A stretch of DNA of 64,000 nt from Paenibacillus massiliensis 2301065 = DSM 16942 (GTDB lineage: Bacteria > Bacillota > Bacilli > Paenibacillales > Paenibacillaceae): contig NZ_KB898185.1 of the NCBI RefSeq assembly GCF_000377505.1, positions 1-64,000 on the forward strand. The letters are read 5' to 3'. The notes under the pieces are model-generated. The model had not been told where the DNA came from. It made no database searches and saw only the letters and a program-made list of their open reading frames with translations. Shown piece by piece: positions 1-36,598 of the stretch (its first letter is position 1; every line of letters starts with the position of its first letter). The translations under genes were made by a program, and so were the position numbers.

Positions 1-3000
1 AGCAGCCGCACCGGGAATTCGCTCAGTCGGTAATCCCGTCGATACGCCGCTGCCGTATTCACCAGACTGCGATGCTCAATCATGACGCCCTTCGGACGTC
101 CGGTTGTACCGGAGGTGTAGATCACATACGCTAGATCCTGCGGCTCGTTGATCCACTCCAGGTTGCTGTCATCCCCGGCATAGAGCGACTCGTCATCCAG
201 CTCTAGCACCTGGCGCAGACGCAGCTCATCTGCGGCCTTGGACTCGGAACCAGCCTCCAATGCTTCCTGCTGCGCTAACAATCCCTTTTGCGTCAGCAGA
301 ACCGTTGCCCCGCTATCCGCCAGCATGAAGCGAATACGCTCAGACGGGTAGTCCGCATCCAGCGGCACATACGCCCCGCCAGCCTTCCACACCGCCAGCA
401 CACCAACCAGCATATCGACAGAACGCTCACTCAGAATACCGACGATAGATTCACGCCCGATGCCTTCCTCTCGCAATCGACGTGCGAGTTGGTTCGCCCT
501 TTCATTAAGCTCACGGTAAGTAAGCTGCTGTCCCTCGTACACGACAGCTACATGCTCAGGTATGAGCTTTGCCTGCTGCTCCACATATGGATGGAACAAG
601 CCCGCAACACCTGTCGTATCCAGCCCTTCGAGTACGCCAACAGAGGCAAAACCGTCAAGGATGCTAGCTCTTTCATTAACCGTCACCAGCTCCAGATCAT
701 CAACCCGGGCGTGTGGACTACTAATGACTTGTTCCATGACGTACACCCAATGCTCGGCAATCTGCCTGATCGCTGAGCGGTCGAATACGAGCGCATTGTA
801 TTCGAGATGAACATGGATATTGTCGCCAGGTACAATCGTAATGTTGAAATCGTAGTTCGTCTGCTCTGACATGGACGCATTCGCAATGGTGAAGCCGCCC
901 GCATCTCGGCTGCCCATTTCCTCCATACGCTGCTCCACAGGGTAATTTTCGAACACCATTATATGATTGACGAGGTCCTGCTTTTGCTCAGTCAGAGCCT
1001 GAATTTCATACAGTGGATATGTCTCATAAGAGCGGGAAGCGAGTGCATGCTCCTGAGTCCGTTTCATCAGCTCTACGAAAGTTACTTCTTCCTCACTATG
1101 AATGCGCACTGGGACGGTATTAATGAACAAGCCGATCATTTTGTCGATACCTGGGATATCTGCCGATCTGCCAGATACAACGCTGCCAAATACCACGTCA
1201 CGACTATTGTTATAGCGCTGCAGCACCACACCCCACGCAGCCTGTAGCAGCGTATTGACAGTCACTTGCTGCTGCTTGACCAGTGAATCCATCTGCTGTG
1301 TCAGCTCACGACCTAGCGTGAAGGACAGCTTGTTTGCTTCGTAGCCCTTGGCTTGAGCATCCAGCACCTTCGCCTGTGGCAGTGTAGTCTGCTGCTCGAA
1401 CCCCGTGAAGTAATCACTCCAGAATCGTTCTGCCTCCGTATTGTCCTGACGCTCCAGCCATTCGATATACTCACTATACGGGGTAACCGGAGCAAGCTCG
1501 GGTGTGCGTCCTGCCAGCACATCAAAGTACGTATTGAATGCTTCCCCGACAATAAGGAACAAGCACCAGCCGTCCATCAGAATATGATGGAAGCTCCACA
1601 CAAAACGGTAGCTCTCCTCATCCGTACGCAAGACAGACACTCTCATTAGCGCCCCTGTGCTAAAGTCAAAGCCCTCAGCCTGATCACGCTTCGCATACTC
1701 AATAATATAGCTGCTCTGCTCTGACTCTCCCATAGAACGAAGATCCTGGAAGCGGAAATCCGCCGCCTTATTGCAATACACCACCTGCAAAGGCTGCTCA
1801 TGCCAGCCGCTATAAAAGTTCGTCCTGAAAATCTGGTGGCGTGCCACCAATTGATTGAGACTGTGCGCAAAAGCCTCGATCTGGAAGCTGCCCTGCAGCT
1901 CAAATGTCGCCTGCTCAAAGTACGCACTGGATTGCGGCTCCATCAGTCCATGGAACAGAATCCCCTTCTGCATCGGTGTCAGGGCATAGATATTGTCCAG
2001 CTCACCCGCTGCCGCAGTCTGGGTCACAATATGCTCCAGCTCTCCAGCCGTCAGTCCCTGGAAAGACAGATCGCTCGGCGTCAGCTCCGGCACTTCCTTG
2101 CCGACACAATGTGCCAGCACATGCTGCAAGCTTGTCTGAAGCAGCTCCGCAAGCTGTTTGATCGTTTTCTTCATAAAAGTCTTACTGCTATAGCTGATCG
2201 TCAGCTCCAGCACCCCAGCTGAGATCATACTGTTCAGATCCAGTGCATAGCGCTTCGTCAACGTATCGCTAATGGACGCACCGCTGGAATAGGTGGACAT
2301 ACGGAAGGCACTATTGCTCAAATCCTGGTCGAATTGCCCCAGATAGTTGAAGCTAATCTCTGGCTCGATCATGAACGCAGGAGACTTCTGCCCCTTCTCG
2401 TTGCTTTGTACCGCTTCCTGCTCGCCTGCCTGGGAGGACAGATAGCGTAAAATGCCGTATCCAACCCCTTTTTGTGGAACGCGGCGCAGCCCTTCCTTGA
2501 CGCGTTTGACACACTGACCTACATCCTGGCCCTCACCCAGATCCAGTACGACGGGGAATTGACTGGTGAACCAACCAACGGTACGTGTAATATCCACATT
2601 CGGCACTATGGCTTCACGGCCATGGCCCTCCAGATTGACCAGCACCTGACTGAGGCCTGCCCACTCATGAATAGCGATGCCAAGCGCAGTCAGCAGCAGG
2701 TCGTTAGCCTCTGTATTGTATGCACGGTGAGCCTGCTTCAGAAATTGCTCTGTCTCCTCCGCCGTCCATGTCACGGTAAGTGTACGATCGTCACGCAGCT
2801 GCGGCTTGGCAGCTGATTTGCGCACATAATCCTTAGGTAACTTGGCCTCAGCTGCTTCGGTCCGCTCAATTCCTTGCCAATACGCACGCTCTTTATCCAA
2901 GGCTGCACTGTGCGCATACTGTTGCAACCCATCTGCCCACATCTGGAACGAATCGGTCTTGTTCGGCAATTGGACAGACTCTCCCCTTACAGCCTGCTCA

Positions 3001-6000
3001 TAGCCCGACGCCAGATCCTCCAGCAATATACGCCAAGACACCCCGTCAACAACCAAATGGTGAATAGCAATCAGCAAATGGTCTCCGTCCGCACAACGGA
3101 ACAGACCTAATCTTACCAATGGGCCATTCTCCAGCTGGATGCTGCTTTGAATATCGCTAGCTTTCTCCTCCAGTAGTCGAGCAACATCCGCTTGGCTTGA
3201 CACGTGGGTCAGATCGACTACATCCAGATTGTACGCTTCACCATCCTGTATACTGCGATTCCAAGCTTCATATCCGCCATCATTAGTCTGTCGCAAGACG
3301 ATCCGCAGTGCATCATGATGCTCGACTACTTGGTGGATAGCCACTCGAAGAGCAGCTTCGTCCATATGATCCTCACGATGCAGCAGCAAAGCCTGATTGT
3401 AATGCTCAGGGTTCGCAGGCTGCTGCTCAAGGAACCAATGCTGGATTGGCGTTAACGCTACCGCACCTGTCACTTCGCCTTGATCCGCAATACGAATCAC
3501 CTGCTGCACCCGTCCACTCAGCTCGGCAATCGTCGGATACTGGAACAGCTCTCTCATTTCCAGCTTGTAGCCATTTTGCAGCAATCTTGAGGACACCTGA
3601 ATAGCCTTGATGGAGTCACCACCCAGGTGGAAGAAGTTATCCAGCACGCCGACCTGCGGAATACCCAACACAGACTGCCATACCGACGTCAATACACTCT
3701 CGACAGCATTGCGGGCAGCGACGTAATCCTGACCTGTGTCGATACGTCCCTCTGGTTCAGGCAGTGCACGGCGGTCTACCTTACCATTTGGAGTTAGTGG
3801 TAGCTGCGGGAGTTCAACAAAATAAGAAGGTACCATATAGCTTGGTAGCTCCTGGCTTAGAGCCGTACGCAGCTCATGCATGGATGGAGTTAACAGGCCA
3901 TCCTCAGCTTCAGCAGCCTTCAGCACAACATACGCACACAGCTGCTTTTGCCCCTGGTCATCCTCTCGTGCCACGACCACGGCTTCATGCACAGCCTCCA
4001 GCTTCAGCAGTTGGGCCTCCACCTCACCTAACTCGATCCGATAGCCGCGAATCTTGACCTGCGCGTCGATCCGCCCCTTGTATTCCAGCGTTCCATCAGC
4101 ACGCCAGCGCACGAGGTCACCCGTCCGATAGCAGCGCTCACCGCTGCGGAAGGGACTATCCATGAATTTCTCTGCTGTCAGGTCTGGTCGGTTGCGATAG
4201 CCGCGGGCCACACCGTCTCCTCCGACGAGCAGTTCCCCCCACGCTCCGACAGGCTGCAGCTGTAGAGCACGATCCACGACATACGCAGTTGAATTCGTAA
4301 TGGGGCTACCGATCGGCACCGCTTCTGTCTGCTCACCTAAAATCGCATGCGTAGTCGAGAAGGTCGTGTTTTCTGTCGGTCCATAGCCGTTGATCAGCTT
4401 CAGCGACGGATGGGCTTTCAGCACACGATTTACATGGGGCACAGACAGTACATCCCCACCAATCAACAGCTCCTTCAGCCCTGCGAACAGCTCTACATCC
4501 TGCTGGGACAGCTGGTTGAAGAGCGGTGCTGTCAGCCACATCGTGGTAACCCCATGACTGCGTACAGCTTCCTTCAGCTTAGCCGCGTCCAGAATAACAT
4601 CCTGGCTAACCAGCACGAGCTGGCCACCATTAAGAAGCGAGCCCCAGATCTCAAAGGTGGACGCGTCAAAGACAACCGCTCCCGTCTGCAGAATACGCGT
4701 ATCTTCACTCAGCACAGCATAGCTCGAATTCTTCACGAGCCGCACGACATTACGATGCTCGACCATAACCCCTTTTGGCTGACCTGTCGTTCCTGAAGTG
4801 TACATTAAATAAGCCAATCGACTGCCGAAGGCTACATCCTTTTCTAGTCCCTGATCGCTCATGGTCGGAAGATTGTTATGGTCATTTTTCACATGCGAAT
4901 AATCGGTATATTCCATATGTTGACGCCCTGCTTGTGCTTCATCCAGCGTATACGCACCCTCTTGAGCATCCACTCCATAGATGGTTACGTCGCTCAGATC
5001 CAGCACGATTCCATCGTAATCATCTGGCTGTTGCTCCGCACGTTGTACCAGCAGTAGCTGCGCCTCGGAATCTGTCAACAGATAGCGGACCCGCTCAGAC
5101 GGATAATCCGGATCGATCGGTACGTAAGCACCGCCTGCCTTGAGAATAGCCAGCATGCCCACGATCATATCCGCCGAGCGGTCAGCAACGATACCCACGG
5201 TCTGCTCCGCCGTCACGCCATAGCTGCGCAGTGTGTGCGCCAATTGATTGGCTTGCTCATTCAGTTGCCCGTAAGTCATTCGCGTGCTGCCAGAGACAAT
5301 CGCGATCTGACCTGGGATGCGCTCAGCCTGTTCCTCGAATAGCTCGTGAATGCCTGCGTCCTGCGGATAGTCTACAGCTGTCGCATTGAATACATTGAGG
5401 ATTTCAGAGCGTTCCTCTTCGCTGATCAGCGACAATTCTTCAATACGCTTTTGCGGACCAGCTACCATGTGCTTCGCTACGCTGAGGAATTGACGGATGA
5501 TTAGTGCAATCTCCTCCTCGCTGAACAGCTCCATACGATAATCCAGATAGAGCACGAGTCGATCATCATCCAGCATTTCGACCATATGCATATCAAAGTC
5601 ATTCACGGTATCACCGCAGAAATCATTGAGTACCTGCTGCAAGGCTTCGTCAAAGCGTGAGAAGCTCAGTGTACGATATTGAATCGTCACGCCGAACAGG
5701 CGCTGAAGGTCCATATTGTTCTGCTGCTCGCGCAAATCCTGAATAATCTTGTTATAAGGATAGCGCTGATGTCTAAGGATGGATGACTGCTCCTTGCCGA
5801 CACCCTGCAGGAAGCTCAGTAATTCTGCCTCAGGCTCGACCTGCAGCCGCGTCGCCACGGTGCTCACGAACATGCCTACTGTATCTTTCTCCTTCTTGGA
5901 AGTCCGGTTCGCATATAGCGTACCTACCGTCAAATCCTGCTCGCCCGTCACCTTATGCATGTAAATATACAGAGCAGCCAAGAAGAATGTGAAGATGCTG

Positions 6001-6725
6001 GTCTTATGCTCTTCGCAGAAAGCCTTGACCCCGCGATACAGCTCATCCTCCAGCACAACACTCTCGCGAAGCGCAGTAGTACCTAAAGTAAGTGGATTGT
6101 ACGATTTCAAGCCGGTGATTTCCGGTACATCAGCGAATTTCTCAGTCCAATAGGCCCGATCCTTCTCATAGCGGTCCGATTGCTCGTAGTTTTGCTCTAC
6201 CTGAATAAAATCCAGATAGGCATTTTCTTTAGCTGCGGTATCTTGACCATGTACGATATCTATGTAATGACCCGTAATTTCATTAATTGCCTGATTCATC
6301 GATACGCCGTCGGAGACGATATGATGCATTTTGAAATTGTACCAGGTCTCCTCCGCATCAAGCTGTAAGATCGCGAAGCGATATAATTGGGATTCCAGTA
6401 CCTTGAAGGGCTGTGGATTGTGCTGCTGAACCCATGCCTCAGCTTCTTCAGAAGTAACCTGGAGCGTCTCAATCTCCTGCTCGGCAAATGGAATTACGTG
6501 CTGGTAAGGGACGCCATCCTGCTCCGTGATCCTGATGCGGAATGAATCATTGTTTGCTACGACTCGGTTCATCGCTTGCTGCAATGCATCTATACGAATT
6601 GCTCCCTGAATTTTGACTGTAGCGATAATGGTGGAGGTATTACGCTGGGGGTACAGAAGCTCCGTATACCAAATACGCTGCTGTGGCTGGCTTAATGGAA
6701 ACAGTTGAACATTGTTCTGTGTCAT
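1..6725 (-). CDS. Lipopeptide NRPS, first module plus start of second (5' part only; 3' end outside window)
   Basis: Reading frame stays open from the ATG at 6723-6725 (AGGAG 9 bases upstream) to the window edge, 2,241 codons. Domain order: starter-type condensation domain (HHIVSDG near residue 134), adenylation domain 1 (YTSGTTGQPKG near 640), thiolation domain (LGGDS near 1035), epimerization domain (HHLVVDG near 1222), condensation domain 2 (HHILMDGW near 1712), adenylation domain 2 (YTSGTTGRPKG near 2205) cut off before its specificity residues. The A1 pocket reads D-A-F-W-L-G-G-T-F plus the invariant Lys, a valine code. A protein that starts with C-A-T-E makes an N-acylated D-amino acid, so the product begins fatty acyl-D-Val. 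Tridecaptin A starts this way, and its TriD is preceded by the same thioesterase and transporter genes. Identity with TriD is inferred, because module 2 (D-Dab in tridecaptin A) cannot be read here. Confidence 0.93.
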   Translation of the reverse strand, partial: MTQNNVQLFPLSQPQQRIWYTELLYPQRNTSTIIATVKIQGAIRIDALQQAMNRVVANNDSFRIRITEQDGVPYQHVIPFAEQEIETLQVTSEEAEAWVQQHNPQPFKVLESQLYRFAILQLDAEETWYNFKMHHIVSDGVSMNQAINEITGHYIDIVHGQDTAAKENAYLDFIQVEQNYEQSDRYEKDRAYWTEKFADVPEITGLKSYNPLTLGTTALRESVVLEDELYRGVKAFCEEHKTSIFTFFLAALYIYMHKVTGEQDLTVGTLYANRTSKKEKDTVGMFVSTVATRLQVEPEAELLSFLQGVGKEQSSILRHQRYPYNKIIQDLREQQNNMDLQRLFGVTIQYRTLSFSRFDEALQQVLNDFCGDTVNDFDMHMVEMLDDDRLVLYLDYRMELFSEEEIALIIRQFLSVAKHMVAGPQKRIEELSLISEEERSEILNVFNATAVDYPQDAGIHELFEEQAERIPGQIAIVSGSTRMTYGQLNEQANQLAHTLRSYGVTAEQTVGIVADRSADMIVGMLAILKAGGAYVPIDPDYPSERVRYLLTDSEAQLLLVQRAEQQPDDYDGIVLDLSDVTIYGVDAQEGAYTLDEAQAGRQHMEYTDYSHVKNDHNNLPTMSDQGLEKDVAFGSRLAYLMYTSGTTGQPKGVMVEHRNVVRLVKNSSYAVLSEDTRILQTGAVVFDASTFEIWGSLLNGGQLVLVSQDVILDAAKLKEAVRSHGVTTMWLTAPLFNQLSQQDVELFAGLKELLIGGDVLSVPHVNRVLKAHPSLKLINGYGPTENTTFSTTHAILGEQTEAVPIGSPITNSTAYVVDRALQLQPVGAWGELLVGGDGVARGYRNRPDLTAEKFMDSPFRSGERCYRTGDLVRWRADGTLEYKGRIDAQVKIRGYRIELGEVEAQLLKLEAVHEAVVVAREDDQGQKQLCAYVVLKAAEAEDGLLTPSMHELRTALSQELPSYMVPSYFVELPQLPLTPNGKVDRRALPEPEGRIDTGQDYVAARNAVESVLTSVWQSVLGIPQVGVLDNFFHLGGDSIKAIQVSSRLLQNGYKLEMRELFQYPTIAELSGRVQQVIRIADQGEVTGAVALTPIQHWFLEQQPANPEHYNQALLLHREDHMDEAALRVAIHQVVEHHDALRIVLRQTNDGGYEAWNRSIQDGEAYNLDVVDLTHVSSQADVARLLEEKASDIQSSIQLENGPLVRLGLFRCADGDHLLIAIHHLVVDGVSWRILLEDLASGYEQAVRGESVQLPNKTDSFQMWADGLQQYAHSAALDKERAYWQGIERTEAAEAKLPKDYVRKSAAKPQLRDDRTLTVTWTAEETEQFLKQAHRAYNTEANDLLLTALGIAIHEWAGLSQVLVNLEGHGREAIVPNVDITRTVGWFTSQFPVVLDLGEGQDVGQCVKRVKEGLRRVPQKGVGYGILRYLSSQAGEQEAVQSNEKGQKSPAFMIEPEISFNYLGQFDQDLSNSAFRMSTYSSGASISDTLTKRYALDLNSMISAGVLELTISYSSKTFMKKTIKQLAELLQTSLQHVLAHCVGKEVPELTPSDLSFQGLTAGELEHIVTQTAAAGELDNIYALTPMQKGILFHGLMEPQSSAYFEQATFELQGSFQIEAFAHSLNQLVARHQIFRTNFYSGWHEQPLQVVYCNKAADFRFQDLRSMGESEQSSYIIEYAKRDQAEGFDFSTGALMRVSVLRTDEESYRFVWSFHHILMDGWCLFLIVGEAFNTYFDVLAGRTPELAPVTPYSEYIEWLERQDNTEAERFWSDYFTGFEQQTTLPQAKVLDAQAKGYEANKLSFTLGRELTQQMDSLVKQQQVTVNTLLQAAWGVVLQRYNNSRDVVFGSVVSGRSADIPGIDKMIGLFINTVPVRIHSEEEVTFVELMKRTQEHALASRSYETYPLYEIQALTEQKQDLVNHIMVFENYPVEQRMEEMGSRDAGGFTIANASMSEQTNYDFNITIVPGDNIHVHLEYNALVFDRSAIRQIAEHWVYVMEQVISSPHARVDDLELVTVNERASILDGFASVGVLEGLDTTGVAGLFHPYVEQQAKLIPEHVAVVYEGQQLTYRELNERANQLARRLREEGIGRESIVGILSERSVDMLVGVLAVWKAGGAYVPLDADYPSERIRFMLADSGATVLLTQKGLLAQQEALEAGSESKAADELRLRQVLELDDESLYAGDDSNLEWINEPQDLAYVIYTSGTTGRPKGVMIEHRSLVNTAAAYRRDYRLSEFPVRL

Positions 6726-6881
6726 ACGTGTCTCGCTCCTTACAAATTGTAATATGATCAAGAAACTGCACTTACGCCTGAACGTTGCTTACTGTTCATC
6801 TCTTCAACATGCACAAACTCATCTTCCAAAGGTGCTATTTCCAAAAATGGTTATCCCTGAAGCTACTGTCTCATTCGAATG

Positions 6882-8780
6882 TCAGGCCGATTGCTCCTGA
6901 GGCTGCTTGCGGGACTGAATGTCATACATCTCCGCATAATGCCCTCCCATCGCCAGCAGTTGTTCATGGGTTCCTTGCTCCTTCAATTCTCCCTCAGCAA
7001 GCACACAGATGCGATCCGCCTGCTCAATGGTCGATAAGCGATGAGCGATCACCAGTGTCGTGCGGCCCTTCATCAGCGCAGACAATCCCTGTTGGACTTC
7101 GTACTCAGCTTCCGCATCCAGTGCAGACGTTGCTTCATCAAGCAGCAGGATCGGCGCATTCTTGAGCATAGCCCGCGCGATCGCAATTCGCTGACGCTGT
7201 CCACCTGACAGGTTCGCTCCACGTTCGCCAACGAGCGTATGATAGCCCTCCGGTAGCTCCGCAATGAACCCACTGGCATAGGCGAGCTTAGCTGCTGCCT
7301 CAACCTGCTCATCGCTGGCATCAGGAGAACCAAAACGTATGTTATCGGCTATCGTCCCATGGAACAGCGTCGCTTCCTGCGGCACATAAGCGATCCAGTC
7401 GCGGACTTCATCCAGTCGACAGACTCCTGCGGAACGCTCACGAATCCTCAGCTCGCCTTCGTCGGGTGGATAGAACCCCAGTACCAGCTTCATGACAGTA
7501 CTCTTGCCGCTGCCACTCGGACCAACAAGGGCAGTCACTTTGCCTTCGGGTACCGTTAGACTTAGCCTTCTGAGCGCCGGACGATCCGGCTGATAGGCAA
7601 AGCTGATATCCTGCAGCTCTAATGCCGCAGGGCCTCCCTCCAAGGATGGATCCTCAACAGCGATCCGTGGAGCTGCCCTGGAATCGTCACTCTGTCTTAC
7701 CGGTCTGATCGTTTCCATAAGCCCCTCTGCGCTCAATCTGTCCACTGCCTCGGCCTCCCTCTTCTCAGGATGCTGCTGCCCTAGCAGCGCCGCCGGGAAC
7801 TTCTCTTTCTCTAATGGTTCATCCAGCACCTCGCGGATCCGTGCCAGACCTGCCAAAGAGTTCTGCAAGAGGGACACCGCTGCACCAAGCTGCAGGAATA
7901 CCGTTGAAATCCCTGTTTGCAACTGTACAATTTGACCCAGCACGCCAAGCTGCATCTGGTTCTGAGACACCAATATCAAACCAGCGACAAGTACACCGCC
8001 CAGCGCAAGGAATTCAACGAGAAAATTACACATATCTTGCAGACCCATTTGCCGTCCCTGACGGATGCTAGTACGACTCACCTGCTCACTGGCTGTATTG
8101 CACAGTCCGCCTACTTTGTTCCTTAATCCGAACAGCTTTACTACTTGCAGACCGGTGAGTAAATCACTTAGCCGTTCTGTAAATGTGCTCAGTCGTCCCT
8201 GCAGCTCCTCGCTGGTATGACGCATTCTTTTGGCAAAAAAAGCATTGATCCATGCTGAAGCGAGTCCCAGTATTATCGCTGCAACACCAAATCTCCAATC
8301 CAGTGCCAGCATGATGGTAAGCGAGCCGATAAATAGCGAAACTTCGAGAATGATCGAGCGAATATGGTCTGTATACGCCTGCTCCAGCGTCTGTACATCA
8401 TTCGACATACGGGATACCAGATCACCAGAGTGTCGTTTCTCAACTTGGGCATAAGATAGATTAACAATATGGCCGAACAATCTCCTGCGCACCTCAGCAA
8501 TAGCCAGCCTCACACATTTCATATACATATAGCTGCATAATGGAGACACCAGGCTTAATACGATAAATGTCCCGGTGACCAGATATATCGCTCTGTATAG
8601 CTCCTGCTCTTCACCACTCACAGCAAAATTCAACAAATAATGAACCACAAAGGATAGCAAAATCGTAATGCTTGCATTGGTCAGACTATTGCCAATCAAG
8701 CCAGCAAAGTACCATTTCCGATGGGGCTTCATCAGGGACATCAGTTGCCGGAACTCATAGAACCCCTGCTTGAAGGTCAC
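6882..8780 (-). CDS. ABC exporter, fused membrane and ATPase domains (TriC-like)
   Basis: Half-transporter of the ABCB type: an N-terminal membrane domain of about six helices (residues 1-310), then a nucleotide-binding domain with Walker A GPSGSGKST, signature LSGGQ, Walker B ILLLDEATSALD and the His-loop AHRLST. An unusually long charged linker of about 70 residues joins the two. The GTG at 8787-8789 sits directly on the ribosome-binding site. The GTG at 8778-8780 lies 8 bases after AGGAG and is the better start. The gene overlaps the 3' end of the upstream exporter, so the two are translationally coupled and probably form a heterodimer. Between a lipopeptide thioesterase and NRPS it most likely exports the product and helps self-protection. 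Confidence 0.93.
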   Translation of the reverse strand: MTFKQGFYEFRQLMSLMKPHRKWYFAGLIGNSLTNASITILLSFVVHYLLNFAVSGEEQELYRAIYLVTGTFIVLSLVSPLCSYMYMKCVRLAIAEVRRRLFGHIVNLSYAQVEKRHSGDLVSRMSNDVQTLEQAYTDHIRSIILEVSLFIGSLTIMLALDWRFGVAAIILGLASAWINAFFAKRMRHTSEELQGRLSTFTERLSDLLTGLQVVKLFGLRNKVGGLCNTASEQVSRTSIRQGRQMGLQDMCNFLVEFLALGGVLVAGLILVSQNQMQLGVLGQIVQLQTGISTVFLQLGAAVSLLQNSLAGLARIREVLDEPLEKEKFPAALLGQQHPEKREAEAVDRLSAEGLMETIRPVRQSDDSRAAPRIAVEDPSLEGGPAALELQDISFAYQPDRPALRRLSLTVPEGKVTALVGPSGSGKSTVMKLVLGFYPPDEGELRIRERSAGVCRLDEVRDWIAYVPQEATLFHGTIADNIRFGSPDASDEQVEAAAKLAYASGFIAELPEGYHTLVGERGANLSGGQRQRIAIARAMLKNAPILLLDEATSALDAEAEYEVQQGLSALMKGRTTLVIAHRLSTIEQADRICVLAEGELKEQGTHEQLLAMGGHYAEMYDIQSRKQPQEQSA

Positions 8781-29166: not shown

Positions 29167-29481
29167 CTAGCTCACCCACTTTAGCCCCACAGCCGAACCA
29201 AGTACCATCACTATACATAGAATTCTTAGGATGTTTCGCGGCTCGCCATAGAAGATCATCCCCAGAATCGCACCGCCAGCGGCTCCAATTCCCGTCCACA
29301 CTGCATAGGCGATCCCCATAGGCAGCGTGCCCATAGCCATAGTAAGGAACAAGAAGCTCAGTCCGAAGCCTGTCACCAGCAAAATCAACGAAAGAGCATT
29401 ACGGTCTCGATGAAGCTTATTAATCATCAGAACACCTAGCATTTCAAATATACCTGCAAGAATAAGAAACAACCAGTTCAT
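29167..29481 (-). CDS. ykkD: SMR-family guanidinium exporter subunit YkkD
   Basis: 104 residues, four membrane helices. The first helix, GIFEMLGVLMINK, carries the conserved membrane Glu. AYAVWTGIGAAGGA matches YkkD, the subunit partner of YkkC. The start codon lies 3 bases after the ykkC stop, so the two are co-translated and form a heterodimer. Control by the guanidine riboswitch upstream supports guanidinium export coupled to proton uptake rather than broad drug efflux. Confidence 0.93.
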   Translation of the reverse strand: MNWLFLILAGIFEMLGVLMINKLHRDRNALSLILLVTGFGLSFLFLTMAMGTLPMGIAYAVWTGIGAAGGAILGMIFYGEPRNILRILCIVMVLGSAVGLKWVS

Positions 29482-29484
29482 GGT

Positions 29485-29820
29485 TTAGTGCACCTCCCTC
29501 TGCGTGGACTTGCTTAGCATTTTGAGCCCAATGACACCTAGTAAGAGGACGCCGATCAGTACTAGCTTGCCAGCCTGTACCGGATATCCGAATAGAATAA
29601 TCTCGGCCAAGACCGTCCCGGCTGTACCCAGGCCTACGAATACAGCGTATACAGTCCCTACCGGAAGTGAGCGAGCGGCTGCAATCATGAGCGAGAAGCT
29701 GATGATGATGGCAATCAGTGTAAGGCCCCATTCCAGTACACCGGTAGCATGCTTCAGGCCGATGACCCAGCCCACCTCAAATAATGCAGCAATGATGACA
29801 GACAACCAGGTTTTGTTCAT
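29485..29820 (-). CDS. ykkC: SMR-family guanidinium exporter subunit YkkC
   Basis: 111 residues, four membrane helices. [10 protein letters not shown] with the conserved Glu and [19 protein letters not shown] are typical of YkkC/Gdx-type subunits. The ATG at 29820 follows GGAGG at proper spacing; an upstream in-frame start at 29862 has none. It is the first gene after the guanidine-I riboswitch and pairs with YkkD. Confidence 0.94.
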
Positions 29821-29895
29821 GATAAATCGCCTCCTAGATATCGATATATTGAACAATGTCATAGAGGGCTATGCAGCAAGAAGACGCCGCAGACA

Positions 29896-30236: not shown

Positions 30237-30911
30237 ATGTCGAGAACGATCTTGATCGTGGAAGATCAGCAAATACTACGTGAAATTATGAAGGAGTATT
30301 TGTTGGATGAAGGATACCAAGTGTTAGAGGCCAGCGATGGAAGCCAGGCCTTGGAGCTGTTTCAAGACCATAAAATTGATTTGATTATTCTGGACATTAT
30401 GCTACCAGAAATTGACGGGTGGTCTGTCTGTCGGCGGATTCGCAAGACATCGAACGTCCCGATATTGATGTTGACTTCCCGATCAGACGAGGACGACACA
30501 CTTCTAGGATTTGAGCTGGGTGCGGACGATTACGTCGTCAAGCCCTGCAGCCCACCCATCCTGCTGGCTCGGTCGAAGCGGCTACTTGAAAGCCGGCAAC
30601 ACCGTGATGCGGGGGATATGCTATCTGGCGGGATGATCATGCTCCATCTCCCCTCCCGAACTGTCACGCTAGATGGACAACCATGTAGCCTGACACATAC
30701 GGAATTCGAAATATTAGCCTGTCTATTGAAGAACAAAGGCATCATTATCACAAGAGAGCAACTCATCACGAATATCTGGGGCTACGATTATGCCGGTGAC
30801 GATCGTACGCTCAGCAGTCATATTCGAAATCTGCGTTCCAAATTGGGCGAGCACGCGACAAGGATCGTCACTGTTGTTCGCTCAGGCTACAAATTCGAGG
30901 AGCAGCCATGA
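30237..30911 (+). CDS. OmpR/PhoB-family response regulator
   Basis: 224 residues. Receiver domain with acid pair E9-D10, phospho-acceptor D53 (ILDIMLPE), and Lys in DDYVVKP. A C-terminal winged helix (about 128-222) carries TREQLITNIWGYDYAGDDRT and YKFE. GAGGGGG precedes the ATG. The last four bases overlap the histidine kinase start. It probably drives the surface-modification genes downstream. Confidence 0.95.
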   Translation: MSRTILIVEDQQILREIMKEYLLDEGYQVLEASDGSQALELFQDHKIDLIILDIMLPEIDGWSVCRRIRKTSNVPILMLTSRSDEDDTLLGFELGADDYVVKPCSPPILLARSKRLLESRQHRDAGDMLSGGMIMLHLPSRTVTLDGQPCSLTHTEFEILACLLKNKGIIITREQLITNIWGYDYAGDDRTLSSHIRNLRSKLGEHATRIVTVVRSGYKFEEQP

Positions 30912-32734
30912 GAAAAAGCATCGTCTTTAAGCTGTTTCTGCTGACGATTGGCTTGTGCACACTTATTATCGCTGGCCTCTTTATAGGCCAAACTGTATTT
31001 TTCAAACAATTTTATGTGCATCAAAAGGTCGAGAGTGTCCAAAATGCGCTCCAGACAGCTTCCGAAGAAGATTGGACAAACACACAGGATGTTCTAACCG
31101 AATTTAGGAACGAGCAACAATTTTATCAAAAGTATAACACCTGGATCACCAGACTAGACAACGATGGCAACCTGAAATATACGGACAACTTCGAAGCAGA
31201 GGTACGCTTGGAGAACTCCGCGAATACTCCTGCCCTATCCGGCAAGATGCTCAACATTCCCTTGTATACGGTGATGAATGTGGAAGATCTCAGGGACGAC
31301 AATCCACTTCGGCCTGATTTCCTCGTCACACCAGGGGTACGTATCGCCATCGAAGGCCTCCTGATTAATGACCAATTCTTTCCGCAGCGTATCGGTCAAA
31401 GAGCCACTGATTTGCGAGGAGAAGCCCGGTTAGAAAACGGACCATTCGTCCGTAAGGAATACGATGTCGTCGCAAGATTCAAAAGTCCCACCGAATATCA
31501 TGATCGTTACCCCAGCGTTCTAATATACGGTACCGTTATGCAAGTTCAGACACCCGAGGGTGCCGAAGAATCACGATATACGAACCATTTATTTCTGGAA
31601 CGGATAAAGGCTTTTCAGTCTGATCTGCTCTACGGAGATTTCAGCGACAATAGCGATACCGTCATCGATTACGAGGAAAACAACGTCCCATACAAAATAT
31701 TCGTGAAGCGCTTGCCAGATCTTGCAGGAAACGTCGAGTTCCTGTTTGCCATGACCTCGCTTCAACCCGTGAACGAGGCTACGGGAGTGATGCGTGATTA
31801 TTACGGCTACATTGCGTTAGGAGCTCTGCTGCTCGTCGTATCAGCCTCCTTTTATTATGCCCGTCACATTGCCCGTCCGTTGCTCCGCATGAACGCCGCG
31901 ACACAACGAATGGCCAACCTGGACTTTTCCGAACGAATTCCGGTAACAACCGACGACGAGATCGGCAGCTTGTCCAATAGCATCAATGAGCTTTCGAGCT
32001 TGCTGCATGTCCATATTATCCGACTTGAGCAGGATATTGAGCAAGAAAGGCGGCTGGAGCAGACGCGAAAAGAGTTCATCGCTGGCGTATCTCACGAATT
32101 GAAGACCCCGCTCAGCGTTATCGAGAGCTGCCTGTATATTCTAGAAGACAAGCCTGAAAGCCGGAAACGCGAGTATTACTTTGCTGCCATGAAAGCCGAA
32201 GTGAAGAAGATGGATTTGCTGATCGCGGATATGCTGGAGCTTGCAAAATACGAGTCCGGTACTTATAAAATGGAGATGGCCCCATTCCGTATCGATACTG
32301 TGCTGGAGCGCGTGTGTGAGAAGCTGGCCCCAAGTATCGATGACAAACAGCTGCAGCTGCATACCCACTTCGTCCCTGCCGAAGTCGTCGCGAATCCGCT
32401 GCGGATCGAGCAAGTCGTCGTGAATTTCCTCACGAACGCAATCCGTTATACACCGGAAGGCGAGAATATCTACTTTTCGATAGCGAAAAAAAGTGAAACC
32501 GTCAAAATATGCATTGAAAATAAAGGTACCCACATTCCGAAAGATCAGATAGAAAAAATATGGGATCGCTTTTATCGCGGCGAACGCTCCCGTCATCGTT
32601 CAACCGGCGGCACTGGACTGGGGCTTGCGATATCCAAGCAAATCTTAGATCTACATGGAGTGCGCTATGGTGCGGTTAATACCGAGGACGGTGTACTGTT
32701 CTATTTTGAATTGAATAGGAAGATGGAAGCGTAG
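30908..32734 (+). CDS. Membrane sensor histidine kinase
   Basis: 608 residues. Helix 1 at about 8-30, an outer sensor region of about 265 residues with no family I recognise, and helix 2 at about 298-318. HAMP follows, then HisKA with H396 in VSHELKTPLS, and the ATPase domain with NFLTNAIRYTPEG (N box) and GGTGLGLAI (G box). ATGA overlap with the response regulator. The large external domain suggests sensing of an envelope or extracellular signal. Confidence 0.95.
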   Translation: MRKSIVFKLFLLTIGLCTLIIAGLFIGQTVFFKQFYVHQKVESVQNALQTASEEDWTNTQDVLTEFRNEQQFYQKYNTWITRLDNDGNLKYTDNFEAEVRLENSANTPALSGKMLNIPLYTVMNVEDLRDDNPLRPDFLVTPGVRIAIEGLLINDQFFPQRIGQRATDLRGEARLENGPFVRKEYDVVARFKSPTEYHDRYPSVLIYGTVMQVQTPEGAEESRYTNHLFLERIKAFQSDLLYGDFSDNSDTVIDYEENNVPYKIFVKRLPDLAGNVEFLFAMTSLQPVNEATGVMRDYYGYIALGALLLVVSASFYYARHIARPLLRMNAATQRMANLDFSERIPVTTDDEIGSLSNSINELSSLLHVHIIRLEQDIEQERRLEQTRKEFIAGVSHELKTPLSVIESCLYILEDKPESRKREYYFAAMKAEVKKMDLLIADMLELAKYESGTYKMEMAPFRIDTVLERVCEKLAPSIDDKQLQLHTHFVPAEVVANPLRIEQVVVNFLTNAIRYTPEGENIYFSIAKKSETVKICIENKGTHIPKDQIEKIWDRFYRGERSRHRSTGGTGLGLAISKQILDLHGVRYGAVNTEDGVLFYFELNRKMEA

Positions 32735-32758
32735 AACTTCACGTTCTGCGTTTTTTTT
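32728..32758 (+). terminator. Intrinsic terminator after the histidine kinase gene
   Basis: GCGTAGAAC / GTTCTGCG stem with one wobble pair and eight Ts. It separates the regulator genes from the four genes that follow. Confidence 0.85.
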
Positions 32759-32839
32759 ATTTGATCTGCACTCCGTCTGCATATGATCTTTATTTCTATC
32801 ACGTAATATTCTCTTAAGTAAAAGAAAGGGGAATAAACG

Positions 32840-33514
32840 ATGAAATATAAAAGGTTGTCCATGCTGCTGATCGGGTTGGGAGTCTTAGTGCTTGTAGCGT
32901 GCGGAAATCAAAGTGGGAATAGAGATGATCTCGCTCCCACGTCTTCGGAACCCGTGGCAACGTCGCAGTCACCGTCGTACAAAGAGTTGTATCAGGCAAG
33001 TGTGTTTCTGGGAGATTCGATTACGGAAGGCTTGGCATATCACGACGTATTAGATGAAGGGAACGTGCTGGCTGGTGCTGGCAAGACGGCTGAATTCACG
33101 CTGATGGAAGATGATGTCGACAGGCTGGTCGAACGAAAGCCCGAACGCGTCTTCATACAGTTAGGCTCAGACGATATTCTGTGGCCGACAGACGATCCTA
33201 TGGAATACTCTCTCTCACATTATGCTAAGTTGATAGACAACATCAAAGCAAGGCTTCCGAAGGCGAAGATTACGCTATTGTCTGTCACCCCTGTGAACGC
33301 TGACGCTGAGAAGAAGGAGCCACGCTACGGAAATATTCAAGAATACAATGCTGGTCTTGAAACGCTCGCCGATCAAAAACAGGTTGAATATGTCGATTTA
33401 ACTTCCCTCGTTACTGAGCATGCAGATCTGTACGACACGGATGGTATTCATTTCCAAGCGGCGTTCTACCCAATCCTGCTTGATTACTTGGCAACCGTTC
33501 GGAATGACCGATGA
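32840..33514 (+). CDS. SGNH/GDSL-type lipoprotein
   Basis: 224 residues. Lipoprotein signal with lipobox VLVAC (Cys21). The SGNH block I, VFLGDSITEG, places the nucleophile at Ser60; block V is DTDGIHF near the end. The family removes or transfers acyl groups on glycans and lipids. It is anchored outside the membrane. First of four adjacent genes with an MBOAT acyltransferase, so it likely de-acetylates or transfers acetyl on a cell-surface polymer. AAAGGGG precedes the ATG. Confidence 0.88.
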   Translation: MKYKRLSMLLIGLGVLVLVACGNQSGNRDDLAPTSSEPVATSQSPSYKELYQASVFLGDSITEGLAYHDVLDEGNVLAGAGKTAEFTLMEDDVDRLVERKPERVFIQLGSDDILWPTDDPMEYSLSHYAKLIDNIKARLPKAKITLLSVTPVNADAEKKEPRYGNIQEYNAGLETLADQKQVEYVDLTSLVTEHADLYDTDGIHFQAAFYPILLDYLATVRNDR

Positions 33515-33545
33515 GCCTCTACAATAACTTTGGAGGTAACGATCA

Positions 33546-34952
33546 TTGGTATTCAGCAGCCTAATTTTTCTATTTCAATTTTTGCCCGCCGCTCTGCTCG
33601 CTTATTACGTCTCGCCCACCAAGCTGCGGAATGTCGTTCTGTTCACCGCTAGCCTCGTCTTCTACGCCTGGGGTGAACCACTCTATATCTTGCTGATGCT
33701 TTTCTCCACCTTCTTCGATTATGCCAACGGTCTCCTGATCGATAAGTTCAGGCACCGGAAGGTGATGGCAAAATCGATCTTCATCGGCTCTCTCTTTGGC
33801 AATTTGGCTATTCTTTGCTTCTATAAATATGCTGGATTCTTTGCGGAAACTCTGAACCAACTGATCCACCTTCAACTACAGGTTGCCGATTTGCCACTGC
33901 CAATAGGCATTTCCTTCTACACATTTCAAACCATGTCGTATGTGTTGGACGTCTACTTTGGTAAGACAACGGTGCAGCGAAACATCATTGCTTTCGGCAC
34001 CTATGTAACGATGTTTCCGCAACTCGTAGCCGGCCCGATCATCAAATACGGAGACGTTTCCCGGCAACTGACCTCGCGTAGCATGACACTTAACCGTTTC
34101 GGGAAAGGTGCGGAATTGTTCATTCGAGGTTTGGCCAAGAAAGTGCTGCTCGCCAATAATCTGGGGATGCTGTGGACAAGCGTGAAAACAGCTCCCACAG
34201 CGGACGTGACTGTGTTGTCTGCCTGGCTCGGCATCATCGCGTTCACATTCCAGATTTACTTCGATTTCAGCGGCTATTCGGACATGGCACGGGGGCTGGC
34301 CAAGATGCTCGGCTTCGAGTTCAAGCTGAATTTTAATTATCCTTACACCTCCAGAAGTGTAACGGAGTTCTGGCGACGATGGCATATTTCGCTAGGGACT
34401 TGGTTCAGAGAATATGTGTATTTTCCGCTTGGGGGCAACCGGACGGGCTTCAGCAAACAGCTTCGAAATTTGCTGATCGTCTGGTTCCTCACCGGCTTGT
34501 GGCATGGGGCCAGTTGGAATTTTGTCATCTGGGGCTTATATTTCGGGGTGCTCGTGACGATGGAAAAGATGTTTCTTTTGAAATGGCTTCAATATTGGCC
34601 TCGTCCAGCAACCCATCTCTACTTGCTTCTGGCCGTCATTATAGGTTGGGTGTGGTTCGAATTCGACCATTTGACTTCTGCTATAACGTTTATTGAAACC
34701 ATGCTCGCCTTCTCCGCCAATGGCTGGGTAGACGATCAAGCACTGTACGACTTGTCAACGTATGGCATCTTACTTGTACTGTCGGTGTTGTGTGCTACGC
34801 CGCTTCCGCGCAAATGGGTCCTGCGCTTTAAGCGCAAATGGCACTTGGGAGGTGCATTAGTCAATACAGCTCTATATTTCGCCATGTTGCTGCTGTCGAC
34901 AGCTTATCTTGTTGCCGAGACATATAATCCCTTCTTATATTTTCGGTTTTGA
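33546..34952 (+). CDS. MBOAT-family O-acyltransferase (AlgI/DltB-like)
   Basis: 468 residues, about ten membrane helices. The conserved MBOAT motifs are present: PIGISFYTFQTMSY, QLVAGPI, EFWRRWHISL (H280) and the catalytic His in GLWHGASWN (H320). Such proteins move acyl groups across the membrane to external acceptors, as AlgI does for alginate. The start is TTG at 33546, 8 bases after GGAGGT. It is followed 18 bases later by a DHHW/AlgX-like protein, the usual partner. Confidence 0.94.
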   Translation: MVFSSLIFLFQFLPAALLAYYVSPTKLRNVVLFTASLVFYAWGEPLYILLMLFSTFFDYANGLLIDKFRHRKVMAKSIFIGSLFGNLAILCFYKYAGFFAETLNQLIHLQLQVADLPLPIGISFYTFQTMSYVLDVYFGKTTVQRNIIAFGTYVTMFPQLVAGPIIKYGDVSRQLTSRSMTLNRFGKGAELFIRGLAKKVLLANNLGMLWTSVKTAPTADVTVLSAWLGIIAFTFQIYFDFSGYSDMARGLAKMLGFEFKLNFNYPYTSRSVTEFWRRWHISLGTWFREYVYFPLGGNRTGFSKQLRNLLIVWFLTGLWHGASWNFVIWGLYFGVLVTMEKMFLLKWLQYWPRPATHLYLLLAVIIGWVWFEFDHLTSAITFIETMLAFSANGWVDDQALYDLSTYGILLVLSVLCATPLPRKWVLRFKRKWHLGGALVNTALYFAMLLLSTAYLVAETYNPFLYFRF

Positions 34953-34970
34953 CAGGGAGAGATAACAGTT

Positions 34971-36128
34971 ATGAGACGCATTACGAAACGCATTACGAAA
35001 CAGAAGTTCCTTACTGGCTTGCTGCTGTTATCATATATCGGCATGATGGCTCTAGCTAATGGTGTAACGCCCGACAGGGACTTCTCAGATTCAGAAAATC
35101 GTGTGTTGGGGCAGCGTCCTGGCTTTTCGCTGCATTCGTTCCTAAACGGACAATTCATTTCAGATTATGAGCGGTATACGTCAGATCAATTCGTCTTCCG
35201 GGACGCCTGGATCCGTATGAAGACTGATGTGGACCGTGCCTTGGGCAAGCGGGAAAGTAACGGAGTCTTCCTGGGCAAGGACGGTTATCTCTTCAAGCAA
35301 TACACTTCACCGTCAGCAGCGGACTTGGAGAACAGAGCCCAGGCGATTCAGATGCTCGACCAAGCCACGCCCGGTCTTAACAAGTATGTGATGCTCGCGC
35401 CAACCGCAGTCGCGCTGCTTTCGGACAAATTGCCAGCTCACGCTCCTGTTGGTGACGAACGAGCTGATCTGGAGCGAATTCGCCAGTTGCTGCCGCAAGA
35501 TATTCGCTTTGTCGATATTTATCCAGCGCTGTATGCCCAGCGAGAACAACCGATTTTTTATAGAACCGATCATCACTGGACAACTGAAGGTGCTTATTAT
35601 GCCTATCGCGAGCTTGGCAGTCAGATGGGAATCGTTCCGCAAAGCACAGATGCATTCGACATTCACCAAGCGTCAGACGAGTTCTACGGCACTCTTTATT
35701 CGACAAGCGGATTTCGCCATCTGCAGCCTGACCGAATTCATCTTTATTTGCCGAAAAAGAAGAGCAGCATTAAGGTATCATATGTGAACGAGGGCCTTGT
35801 GTCGGATTCTATGTACGAGCTGGACCACCTTCGCAAGAAGGACAAGTACGCTATTTTTCTAAACGGCAATCATGCCCTGATTCGAATTGTGACGGACAAT
35901 CCTACAGACAAAAAGCTGCTGGTGATCAAGGATTCGTATGCCAATAGCCTGGTTCCCTTCTTAACAGAACACTTTGGCGAGATCGACATCGTCGATCTTC
36001 GGTATTACGACGAATCCGTGCTGAGGCTCGTGCATGAACGCCAATACCAAGACATGCTGATACTGTACAATGTCACTACCTTTTTCGAAGATCCGTCCAT
36101 TCTGAACTTAATGGAGGAAATACCATGA
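34971..36128 (+). CDS. DHHW-family (AlgJ/AlgX-like) surface acyltransferase partner
   Basis: 385 residues. One N-terminal membrane anchor (about 12-30) is followed by an external SGNH-like domain. The family motif is YRTDHHWTTEGAYYAY (about 198-213), and KDSYANSLVPF later carries the nucleophile-type Ser. AlgJ/AlgX-type proteins receive acetyl from the MBOAT protein and place it on the polymer. Overlaps the next gene by 4 bases. The first codons contain a repeat, RRITKRITK. Confidence 0.9.
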   Translation: MRRITKRITKQKFLTGLLLLSYIGMMALANGVTPDRDFSDSENRVLGQRPGFSLHSFLNGQFISDYERYTSDQFVFRDAWIRMKTDVDRALGKRESNGVFLGKDGYLFKQYTSPSAADLENRAQAIQMLDQATPGLNKYVMLAPTAVALLSDKLPAHAPVGDERADLERIRQLLPQDIRFVDIYPALYAQREQPIFYRTDHHWTTEGAYYAYRELGSQMGIVPQSTDAFDIHQASDEFYGTLYSTSGFRHLQPDRIHLYLPKKKSSIKVSYVNEGLVSDSMYELDHLRKKDKYAIFLNGNHALIRIVTDNPTDKKLLVIKDSYANSLVPFLTEHFGEIDIVDLRYYDESVLRLVHERQYQDMLILYNVTTFFEDPSILNLMEEIP

Positions 36129-36598
36129 AGAACCAAAGGTTAGTTGTGCTTGCTATTGCTATCGCGTTCGGGATCTTGACTGGATGTTCCGGTCGTTCTG
36201 GGGTTCACGAATCATTAACGGCAGCCAAACTAGGCGAAGGCATAATGCAAGCGGTAAATTTAAATGAGATGCAACGAGGAGATAGCGAGAAGCTGCGAAG
36301 GATATATCATATCGAGGTAAGCGATGTGGATGATTTCGTCCTATATACTGCTGTATCAAACGTAAAGGCCGACGAACTTGCCATCATCAAGGTCAAGGAT
36401 GCCAGTGAGATCGAAGCCGTTATGGATCAAATACGGCAGAGGGTCGAGGCGCAGACAGTCAAATTCAAAGACTATCGCCCTGAAGAGTATGCTCTGATCG
36501 AAAAACATGTGCTGAAATCGAAGGCCCCGTTCATTTTGTTCGCGGTTTCGGAGGACATTGGACGCATAGAACGCGCATTTGACGACGCCTTGAGGTAA
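36125..36598 (+). CDS. DUF4358-type lipoprotein
   Basis: 157 residues. Lipobox ILTGC puts the lipid Cys at 21. A single small alpha/beta domain follows, with pattern AVNLNEM...VLYTAVSNVKADELAIIKVKD and a final EDIGRIERAFDDAL helix, fitting DUF4358. This family is often found beside MBOAT and DHHW genes in Firmicutes. Its ATG overlaps the DHHW stop, so it is part of the same unit. Function is unknown. Confidence 0.85.
   Translation: MKNQRLVVLAIAIAFGILTGCSGRSGVHESLTAAKLGEGIMQAVNLNEMQRGDSEKLRRIYHIEVSDVDDFVLYTAVSNVKADELAIIKVKDASEIEAVMDQIRQRVEAQTVKFKDYRPEEYALIEKHVLKSKAPFILFAVSEDIGRIERAFDDALR

Follow-up and report, generated by a model that had tools for sequence, protein, structure and literature searches.

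The 64,000-nucleotide stretch of Paenibacillus massiliensis DNA analysed here (the window) contains a locus of six genes, all on the forward strand, in which a response regulator and a sensor histidine kinase are followed by a four-gene operon for a GDSL lipoprotein, an MBOAT protein, a DHHW protein and a DUF4358 lipoprotein. To judge from its motifs, this operon encodes an MBOAT-SGNH O-acylation machine, most likely one that places small acyl groups on the cell wall. Taken as a whole, the locus appears to specify a two-component-controlled wall O-acylation machine with peptidoglycan as the most likely glycan, a reading in which we have moderate confidence. MBOAT-SGNH acyltransferase systems are already known; what is new is a kinase of probable Cache type that serves this operon, its partner regulator and the operator. 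Searches of the open-licence literature (subscription papers being outside the scope) found no account of the operon, its two-component system or the operator.

The window lies at the start of one of the 36 contigs of a 6.39-Mb genome, which has one MBOAT and one DUF4358 gene. Open reading frames and Pfam matches, all above gathering scores, place the six genes where an earlier note, made from the sequence alone, had put them. The gene order given in that note needed correction, since the regulator precedes the kinase and a terminator-like hairpin splits the two-component genes from the four-gene operon.

The MBOAT-DHHW pair and its gene neighbourhood

To compare the locus with its relatives, we scanned named genomes with the DUF4358 alignment and took the best 80 of the 131 places encoding a relative, which with the window made 81 loci. 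Residue counts exclude GDSL proteins shorter than 190 residues, MBOAT proteins shorter than 400 and DHHW proteins shorter than 340. The MBOAT protein matches DltB (2.3e-24) and scores 138.8 bits with the DltB equivalog model, whose cut-off is 375. His280 and His320 are each invariant (77/77), and the C-terminal residues F463, Y465 and F468 are likewise each kept in all 77 sequences. These three form the FxYxxF acyl-shuttle motif, the tyrosine of which is auto-acetylated in PatA (PMC12148441; here and below, PMC numbers stand for excerpts of the papers).

The DHHW protein aligns with Bacillus cereus PatB1 (5v8d) at 1.6e-28. In PatB1 the DHHW motif is block V, a serine is the nucleophile and DxRY is block II, which forms the oxyanion hole (PMC9487903). 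The window protein carries the same DHHW block V, DxRY block II and C-terminal serine, in the permuted order of the PatB1 signature, and D200, H201, H202, W203, S322, D342 and R344 are each kept in 77 of 77 sequences. The Pfam scan found no DUF459 match in this protein and no AT3 domain in the operon. Active-site and shuttle motifs are thus conserved in all members checked, which supports the MBOAT-SGNH O-acylation machine put forward in the earlier note; the residues named there (Ser60 of the GDSL protein, His280 and His320 of MBOAT) are correct in the sequence. Beyond the AlgJ/AlgX-type proteins to which that note pointed, the closest known relative is PatA1/PatB1 of B. cereus (PMC9487903), which it had missed.

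Table 1. Features of the locus and their positions in the window
Feature	Position	Strand	Evidence
OmpR-type response regulator (Response_reg + Trans_reg_C)	30237..30911	+	Pfam 1.3e-31; 3.8e-24
Sensor histidine kinase (HAMP, HisKA, HATPase_c)	30908..32734	+	Pfam
Extracytoplasmic sensor of kinase, predicted Cache/PDC-like with large insert	30995..31813	+	AlphaFold pLDDT 85, pTM 0.85
Terminator-like hairpin 3' of kinase stop codon	32725..32755	+	Hairpin search: 8 in region vs 6.3 expected in shuffles
Direct-repeat operator, TCTGCA-N5-TCTGCA-N5-TCTT-like, 11-bp period; predicted regulator site	32765..32795	+	Exact 16-base match
-10-like TAATAT	32804..32809	+	8 bases past scored operator; read from sequence
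GDSL/SGNH lipoprotein, probable O-acyl esterase	32840..33514	+	GDSL_2 1.6e-20; Ser60 at 33017-33019, Asp201, His204
MBOAT acyltransferase, PatA/DltB-like	33546..34952	+	MBOAT Pfam 2.6e-25; His280, His320
C-terminal FLYFRF = FxYxxF acyl-shuttle motif, Tyr465	34932..34949	+	MBOAT residues 463-468
DHHW-family O-acyltransferase, PatB1-like	34971..36128	+	DHHW Pfam 1.1e-35, ALGX 2.3e-15, weak SGNH
DHHW protein motifs	DHHW 200-203 at 35568-35579; Ser322 at 35934-35936; DLRY 342-345 at 35994-36005	+	
DUF4358 lipoprotein, predicted accessory subunit	36125..36598	+	Pfam 7.4e-28; AlphaFold pLDDT 88

GDSL, MBOAT, DHHW and DUF4358 genes occur together in 71 of the 81 loci, a sample that was drawn with DUF4358 and so does not give the frequency of MBOAT-DHHW pairs lacking it. 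Linkage of the four families is far above chance, and they co-occur as the check proposed in the earlier note required. The order GDSL-MBOAT-DHHW-DUF4358 is found in 46 of the 71 (Paenibacillus, Brevibacillus, Cohnella and Lysinibacillus), GDSL-DUF4358-MBOAT-DHHW in 19 (Clostridium and relatives) and variants in 6. Almost every locus with an MBOAT gene, the window included, has the DHHW gene after it; in the window the DHHW gene also overlaps the DUF4358 gene by 4 bases. What is more, some of the parts are fused: DHHW and GDSL form a single chain in Bacillus ectoiniformans (L125) and in L137, which may be the same species, and in a pair of Salibacterium species (L104, L105) DUF4358 shares its chain with two GDSL domains. 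That one and the same group of genes recurs in two arrangements speaks for selection acting on the group, as do the fusions, and the fused chains imply a single complex.

Beyond this sample, DUF4358 is present in 33 of 398 sampled Bacillota genomes. We fetched 34 loci from them, some of which end at contig ends, and recognised DUF4358 in 32; no DUF4358 gene was called by the profile in L150 and L163. MBOAT and DHHW lie at most four genes away in 21 of the 32 (11 with GDSL and 10 without), while the rest have GDSL alone (6), MBOAT alone (1) or neither (4). One genome (G492) carries GDSL-DUF4358 and DUF4358-MBOAT-DHHW at two separate sites (L138 and L151), as if split. Within Paenibacillus, some DHHW match was found in 25 of 75 genomes, with at least 55% identity in 4 (our own genome counted, and one match partial), about 35% in four more and weak similarity in the rest. 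The operon is a patchy trait within its own genus.

Two-component system and operator

The ectodomain of the kinase (residues 30-302, approximately) has no Pfam match, but the AlphaFold model resembles Cache/PDC sensors. The best VIA alignments were with the ectodomains of Mlp24, LuxQ, CitA and WalK, with Z of 9.0-9.6 over 111-135 of the 273 residues, making a Cache/PDC core with an insert likely. Foldseek gave no match at E <= 0.001, and the Cache reading is that of VIA by itself. Kinases with an ectodomain of the same family are encoded in 49 of the 81 loci, the window included, at most five genes upstream of MBOAT in 46 and away from the operon in three (L093, L099, L105).

A direct repeat with an 11-bp period lies upstream of the GDSL gene, followed by a -10-like box, and a similar T-rich -10-like stretch is found at the same place in relatives. 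We built a weight matrix from 30 such sites and left out the tested locus when scoring. The operator precedes the operon in 47 of the 49 kinase-bearing loci (the exceptions are L074 and L088) and in 5 of the 32 loci without a family kinase (L094, L095, L097, L104, L106), whereas the same threshold yielded 1 match in 4.48 Mb of shuffled sequence. In the window the site scores 32.8 bits (leave-one-out), compared with 10.2 for the best unrelated site in the 64 kb, its own 11-bp-shifted register set aside. The 16-base pattern has a single match with 0 mismatches in the 6.39-Mb genome. If three mismatches are allowed, chance by itself should produce about one match in the window, so that exactness and conservation carry the weight, not the count. 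In Lysinibacillus and Salibacterium the operator stands before the operon though the kinase is encoded elsewhere, which argues for regulation and not hitch-hiking.

We predict that the regulator binds this operator. The shared site supports a kinase and regulator dedicated to the operon, in agreement with the control by the two-component system that the earlier note had supposed. The hairpin lies between the two-component genes and the operon, and a hairpin-like stretch similar to it is visible in most upstream regions of related loci. Pattern searches of our own genome returned the operon site and a few weak others, in numbers little higher than those of a reversed-pattern control (7 vs 2 and 10 vs 2). 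A weaker copy of the operator, at 24.6 bits, is present in the same genome 5' of a peroxiredoxin-like gene (C19:4828-4870, minus strand; L201/L228).

The GDSL and DUF4358 lipoproteins

The catalytic residues of the GDSL lipoprotein are well kept, Ser60 in 73/76 sequences, Asp201 in 73/76 and His204 in 76/76. Gly81 of block II is invariant (76/76); a glycine there is of the hydrolase type, and PatB and OatA carry Ser or Asn at this position (PMC12148441). The block III position is more varied, with Asp in 44, Asn in 26, Thr in 4 and Cys in 2 of the 76, the Asp mainly in Paenibacillaceae. The nearest solved structures are annotated as O-acetylesterase/lysophospholipase L1 (1.2e-11). The invariant glycine favours an esterase, with a relay transferase as the rival, and the protein is probably an Ape1-like esterase.

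According to this rival, the GDSL protein would be a second transferase in a relay from MBOAT through DHHW and GDSL to the polymer, like AlgJ/AlgX. Such a relay would suit the DHHW-GDSL chains, the presence of GDSL in 74 of the 81 loci and the replacement of the block III Asn by Asp. On the other hand, Gly81 differs from the residues of PatB and OatA, the nearest structures are esterases, and DUF4358-MBOAT-DHHW occurs without GDSL in 10 of the 32 Bacillota-sample loci, from which it follows that a GDSL step is not obligatory everywhere. We therefore consider a relay role unlikely, if still a serious competitor of the esterase. Three Lysinibacillus loci have another GDSL gene, preceded by an operator of its own; it lies 5' of the operon in two of them (L093, L097) and on the opposite strand in the third (L099).

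DUF4358 proteins have a lipobox-like N terminus in 60 of 73 cases. The AlphaFold model, made with 47 sequences (L066 was excluded for its in-frame stop), is an alpha/beta domain with pLDDT 88.2. Y61, E84 and Y117 are invariant among the 47, and no catalytic set is obvious. Foldseek with this model gave no match at E <= 0.001, and a PDB sequence search with the profile returned coiled-coil chance matches only. VIA ranked highest 4esq, the ectodomain of PknH (Z 7.3, rmsd 4.4 over 122 residues), and 7cu8, TiME (Z 7.0, rmsd 3.6 over 118), with the next at Z 4.7; these matches were rejected as too weak. In the open-licence literature one paper was found to name DUF4358, in a row of a proteome table. 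We predict from its linkage that it is an accessory lipoprotein of the acylation machine, which gives a family of previously unknown function its first testable role.

Two further observations concern this family. The DUF4358 gene of one Paenibacillus contains an in-frame stop codon (L066, 10001-10447; L015). Lone DUF4358 genes, many of them encoding about 300 residues and several per genome, occur without MBOAT, DHHW or GDSL nearby in L173-L183, L191 and L192 (Paenibacillaceae, mainly one genus).

Candidate acceptors and proposed mechanism

Two lines of evidence from related loci point to peptidoglycan as the acceptor. First, an Amidase_3 and/or polysaccharide deacetylase gene lies within the fetched stretch in 27 of the 81 loci, directly before the GDSL gene in 18; several of those 18 are close relatives and so not independent events. 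Of the 34 deacetylase/amidase genes that these loci contain, 23 have the operator in front of them, some of these at a distance from the operon (L099, L105, L111). The deacetylases resemble the model NF045822 for peptidoglycan GlcNAc deacetylase (up to 9.9e-81), and their closest solved structure is that of a peptidoglycan deacetylase from B. cereus (9.5e-56); the neighbouring amidases are nearest to CwlV. Second, the genes for SigV and RsiV are part of the cluster in two Bacillota genomes, the only such cases seen: L152 (G481, 20-5335) reads GDSL-DUF4358-SigV-RsiV-MBOAT-DHHW, with RsiV recognised at 3.1e-43 and matching the PDB entry 5jen at 3e-15, and L143 (G365, 5933-8750) reads GDSL-DUF4358-SigV-RsiV. 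In B. subtilis, RsiV binds lysozyme and thereby frees SigV, which turns on oatA (PMC9044953). Both lines make the wall, named as a possible target in the earlier note, a likelier one. The look-alike amidase and deacetylase neighbours had also prompted a sporulation reading (a CwlD/PdaA-like pair, muramic lactam), which we rejected because the deacetylases fit best with PgdA2-type models and B. cereus peptidoglycan deacetylases and the amidase is nearest to CwlV.

Several points weigh against peptidoglycan, or against the broader scheme. The deacetylases reach 271 of the 400 bits of NF045822, below its curated cut-off, and the amidases fall below that of CwlD. Our own genome has 10 deacetylase-like and 5 amidase genes, none with the operator (best 9.3 bits), so that the link to peptidoglycan is a comparative one. 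This genome also encodes a pair of AT3 proteins similar in size to OatA, with 669 and 606 residues (C14:128044-130050 and C1:702136-703953; L193, L194), in which no SGNH domain was detected at 1e-5. Of the DHHW enzymes PatB1 is the one known best, and it modifies secondary cell wall polysaccharide (SCWP), not peptidoglycan (PMC9487903); our own genome makes SCWP, its pyruvyltransferase CsaB scoring 281.9 bits against a cut-off of 213.1. Clostridial loci are mostly without the two-component system and the operator. Finally, DUF4358 stands without a nearby MBOAT in 16 of 25 hand-picked odd Paenibacillaceae loci, most of these proteins having about 300 residues; the family is therefore not confined to the acylation system and can act elsewhere. 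With these points taken into account, peptidoglycan is still the acceptor that we favour, if with some reserve, on the strength of the sequence comparisons.

The same machine might instead acylate SCWP, as PatA1/PatB1 do in the B. cereus group, and so tune the anchoring of S-layer proteins. This would fit the PatB1-like DHHW protein and the equipment of our own genome, where CsaB (on another contig than the operon) is accompanied by TagA/WecG, TagO-like and SLH genes. CsaB scores above the cut-off in 23 of 46 hosts, including all 19 of the Paenibacillaceae tested. However, 19 of the 46, some of them metagenome-assembled genomes, have either no CsaB or one that scores 59 bits or less, so that pyruvylated SCWP is not a general acceptor; in this genome it is a possible one. 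Nor was linkage to csaB or SLH genes seen, while the shared operator marks peptidoglycan enzymes and SigV-RsiV is a lysozyme sensor. An SCWP acceptor thus seems to us somewhat improbable, though well ahead of the remaining candidates.

An exopolysaccharide such as a cellulose-like polymer or a capsule, as with CcsHI, WssHI and AlgIJX, is a poor candidate. It has a precedent in the CcsH/CcsI MBOAT/DHHW pair of Clostridioides difficile, which adjoins cellulose synthase (PMC7710045). Against it, no glycosyltransferase or synthase recurs as a neighbour, the largest non-core neighbour cluster being that of the amidases and deacetylases (26/81 loci), and the scan of flanking genes in the window did not find one, in keeping with the lack of a nearby glycan-synthesis gene remarked on in the earlier note. 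It is hardly credible that the four genes came together by chance or as a selfish group and that the two-component system has nothing to do with them. Their sporadic occurrence in the genus would agree with such a reading; the conserved set in two orders, the fusions, the shared operator and the dedicated kinase already contradict it.

With peptidoglycan as the most likely glycan, the motifs suggest the following mechanism. The acyl group, which is probably acetyl and supplied by acetyl-CoA, would be taken up by MBOAT and loaded with the help of its His320 onto the protein's own Tyr465 in the C-terminal FxYxxF tail, on the outer face. The DHHW protein would receive the group on Ser322, using Asp200/His202 and the Arg344 oxyanion hole as PatB1 does, and pass it to the wall glycan. 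More tentatively, the GDSL lipoprotein may trim or edit the esters, the role of Ape1 in the peptidoglycan O-acetylation clusters of Gram-negatives, with the DUF4358 lipoprotein keeping it within the complex. As to control, the kinase, with its probable Cache-type sensor, would activate the regulator, which would bind the conserved 11-bp direct repeat just 5' of the -10-like box; genes for a peptidoglycan N-deacetylase and a wall amidase have these sites in front of them in relatives.

The closest known systems share parts of this scheme. PatA1/PatB1, which O-acetylate SCWP in the B. cereus group, are likewise an MBOAT and DHHW pair with alignable DHHW, DxRY and Ser motifs (PMC9487903); the operon described here adds the two lipoproteins, the dedicated two-component system and the operator. 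The Neisseria PatA/PatB/Ape1 OAP cluster, which serves peptidoglycan O-acetylation and de-O-acetylation, likewise has an operon in which an FxYxxF MBOAT stands beside an SGNH transferase and an enzyme of the GDSL_2 type (PMC12148441, PMC6174289). Here, by contrast, the transferase is of the DHHW family and not DUF459/PatB, the host is Gram-positive, and DUF4358 and the two-component system are extra. The sigV-rsiV-oatA lysozyme response of B. subtilis resembles L152 in having SigV-RsiV beside acyltransferase genes, but the acyltransferase is MBOAT-DHHW here and not AT3-SGNH, and the window uses a two-component system, not SigV. CcsH/CcsI of C. difficile, a predicted acetylcellulose system, is also an MBOAT/DHHW pair (PMC7710045), with a linked cellulose synthase that has no equivalent at this operon. 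The DltB/DltX/DltD system of D-alanylation shares the DltB-like MBOAT core and the acyl-Tyr logic; the motif is fused to MBOAT here, the score is below the DltB cut-off, and the operon has no dlt partner genes.

The reviews consulted assign Gram-positive peptidoglycan O-acetylation to OatA, and the Gram-positive MBOAT route to SCWP or cellulose. As a bolder and decidedly tentative proposal, the locus may represent a second, OatA-independent and inducible peptidoglycan O-acetylation system in Gram-positives. An MBOAT-DHHW-GDSL-DUF4358 complex would write and edit acetyl marks, co-induced with an N-deacetylase and an amidase by its own two-component system; SigV-RsiV would be an alternative switch in some Clostridia-like relatives, and DUF4358 would couple writer and eraser. 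If this is true, Gram-positives would possess a second inducible wall armour beside OatA, coupled through shared operators to the N-deacetylation of peptidoglycan and, in two relatives, to a receptor for lysozyme. On the main reading, too, the acylation would probably shield the wall from lysozyme and other enzymes that cut it. With the regulator, its exact operator and the predicted target genes named, one laboratory could put the scheme to the test.

The flanking window genes that were scanned are unrelated, and include a small multidrug resistance protein, a flavohaemoglobin, AraC- and Lrp-type regulators and a metallo-beta-lactamase-fold protein, among others. Directly 5' of the regulator is a pair of small multidrug-resistance-type genes (29167-29862, minus strand), of which the Pfam scan covered 29167-29481. 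Germination genes adjoin some of the clostridial loci (L109).

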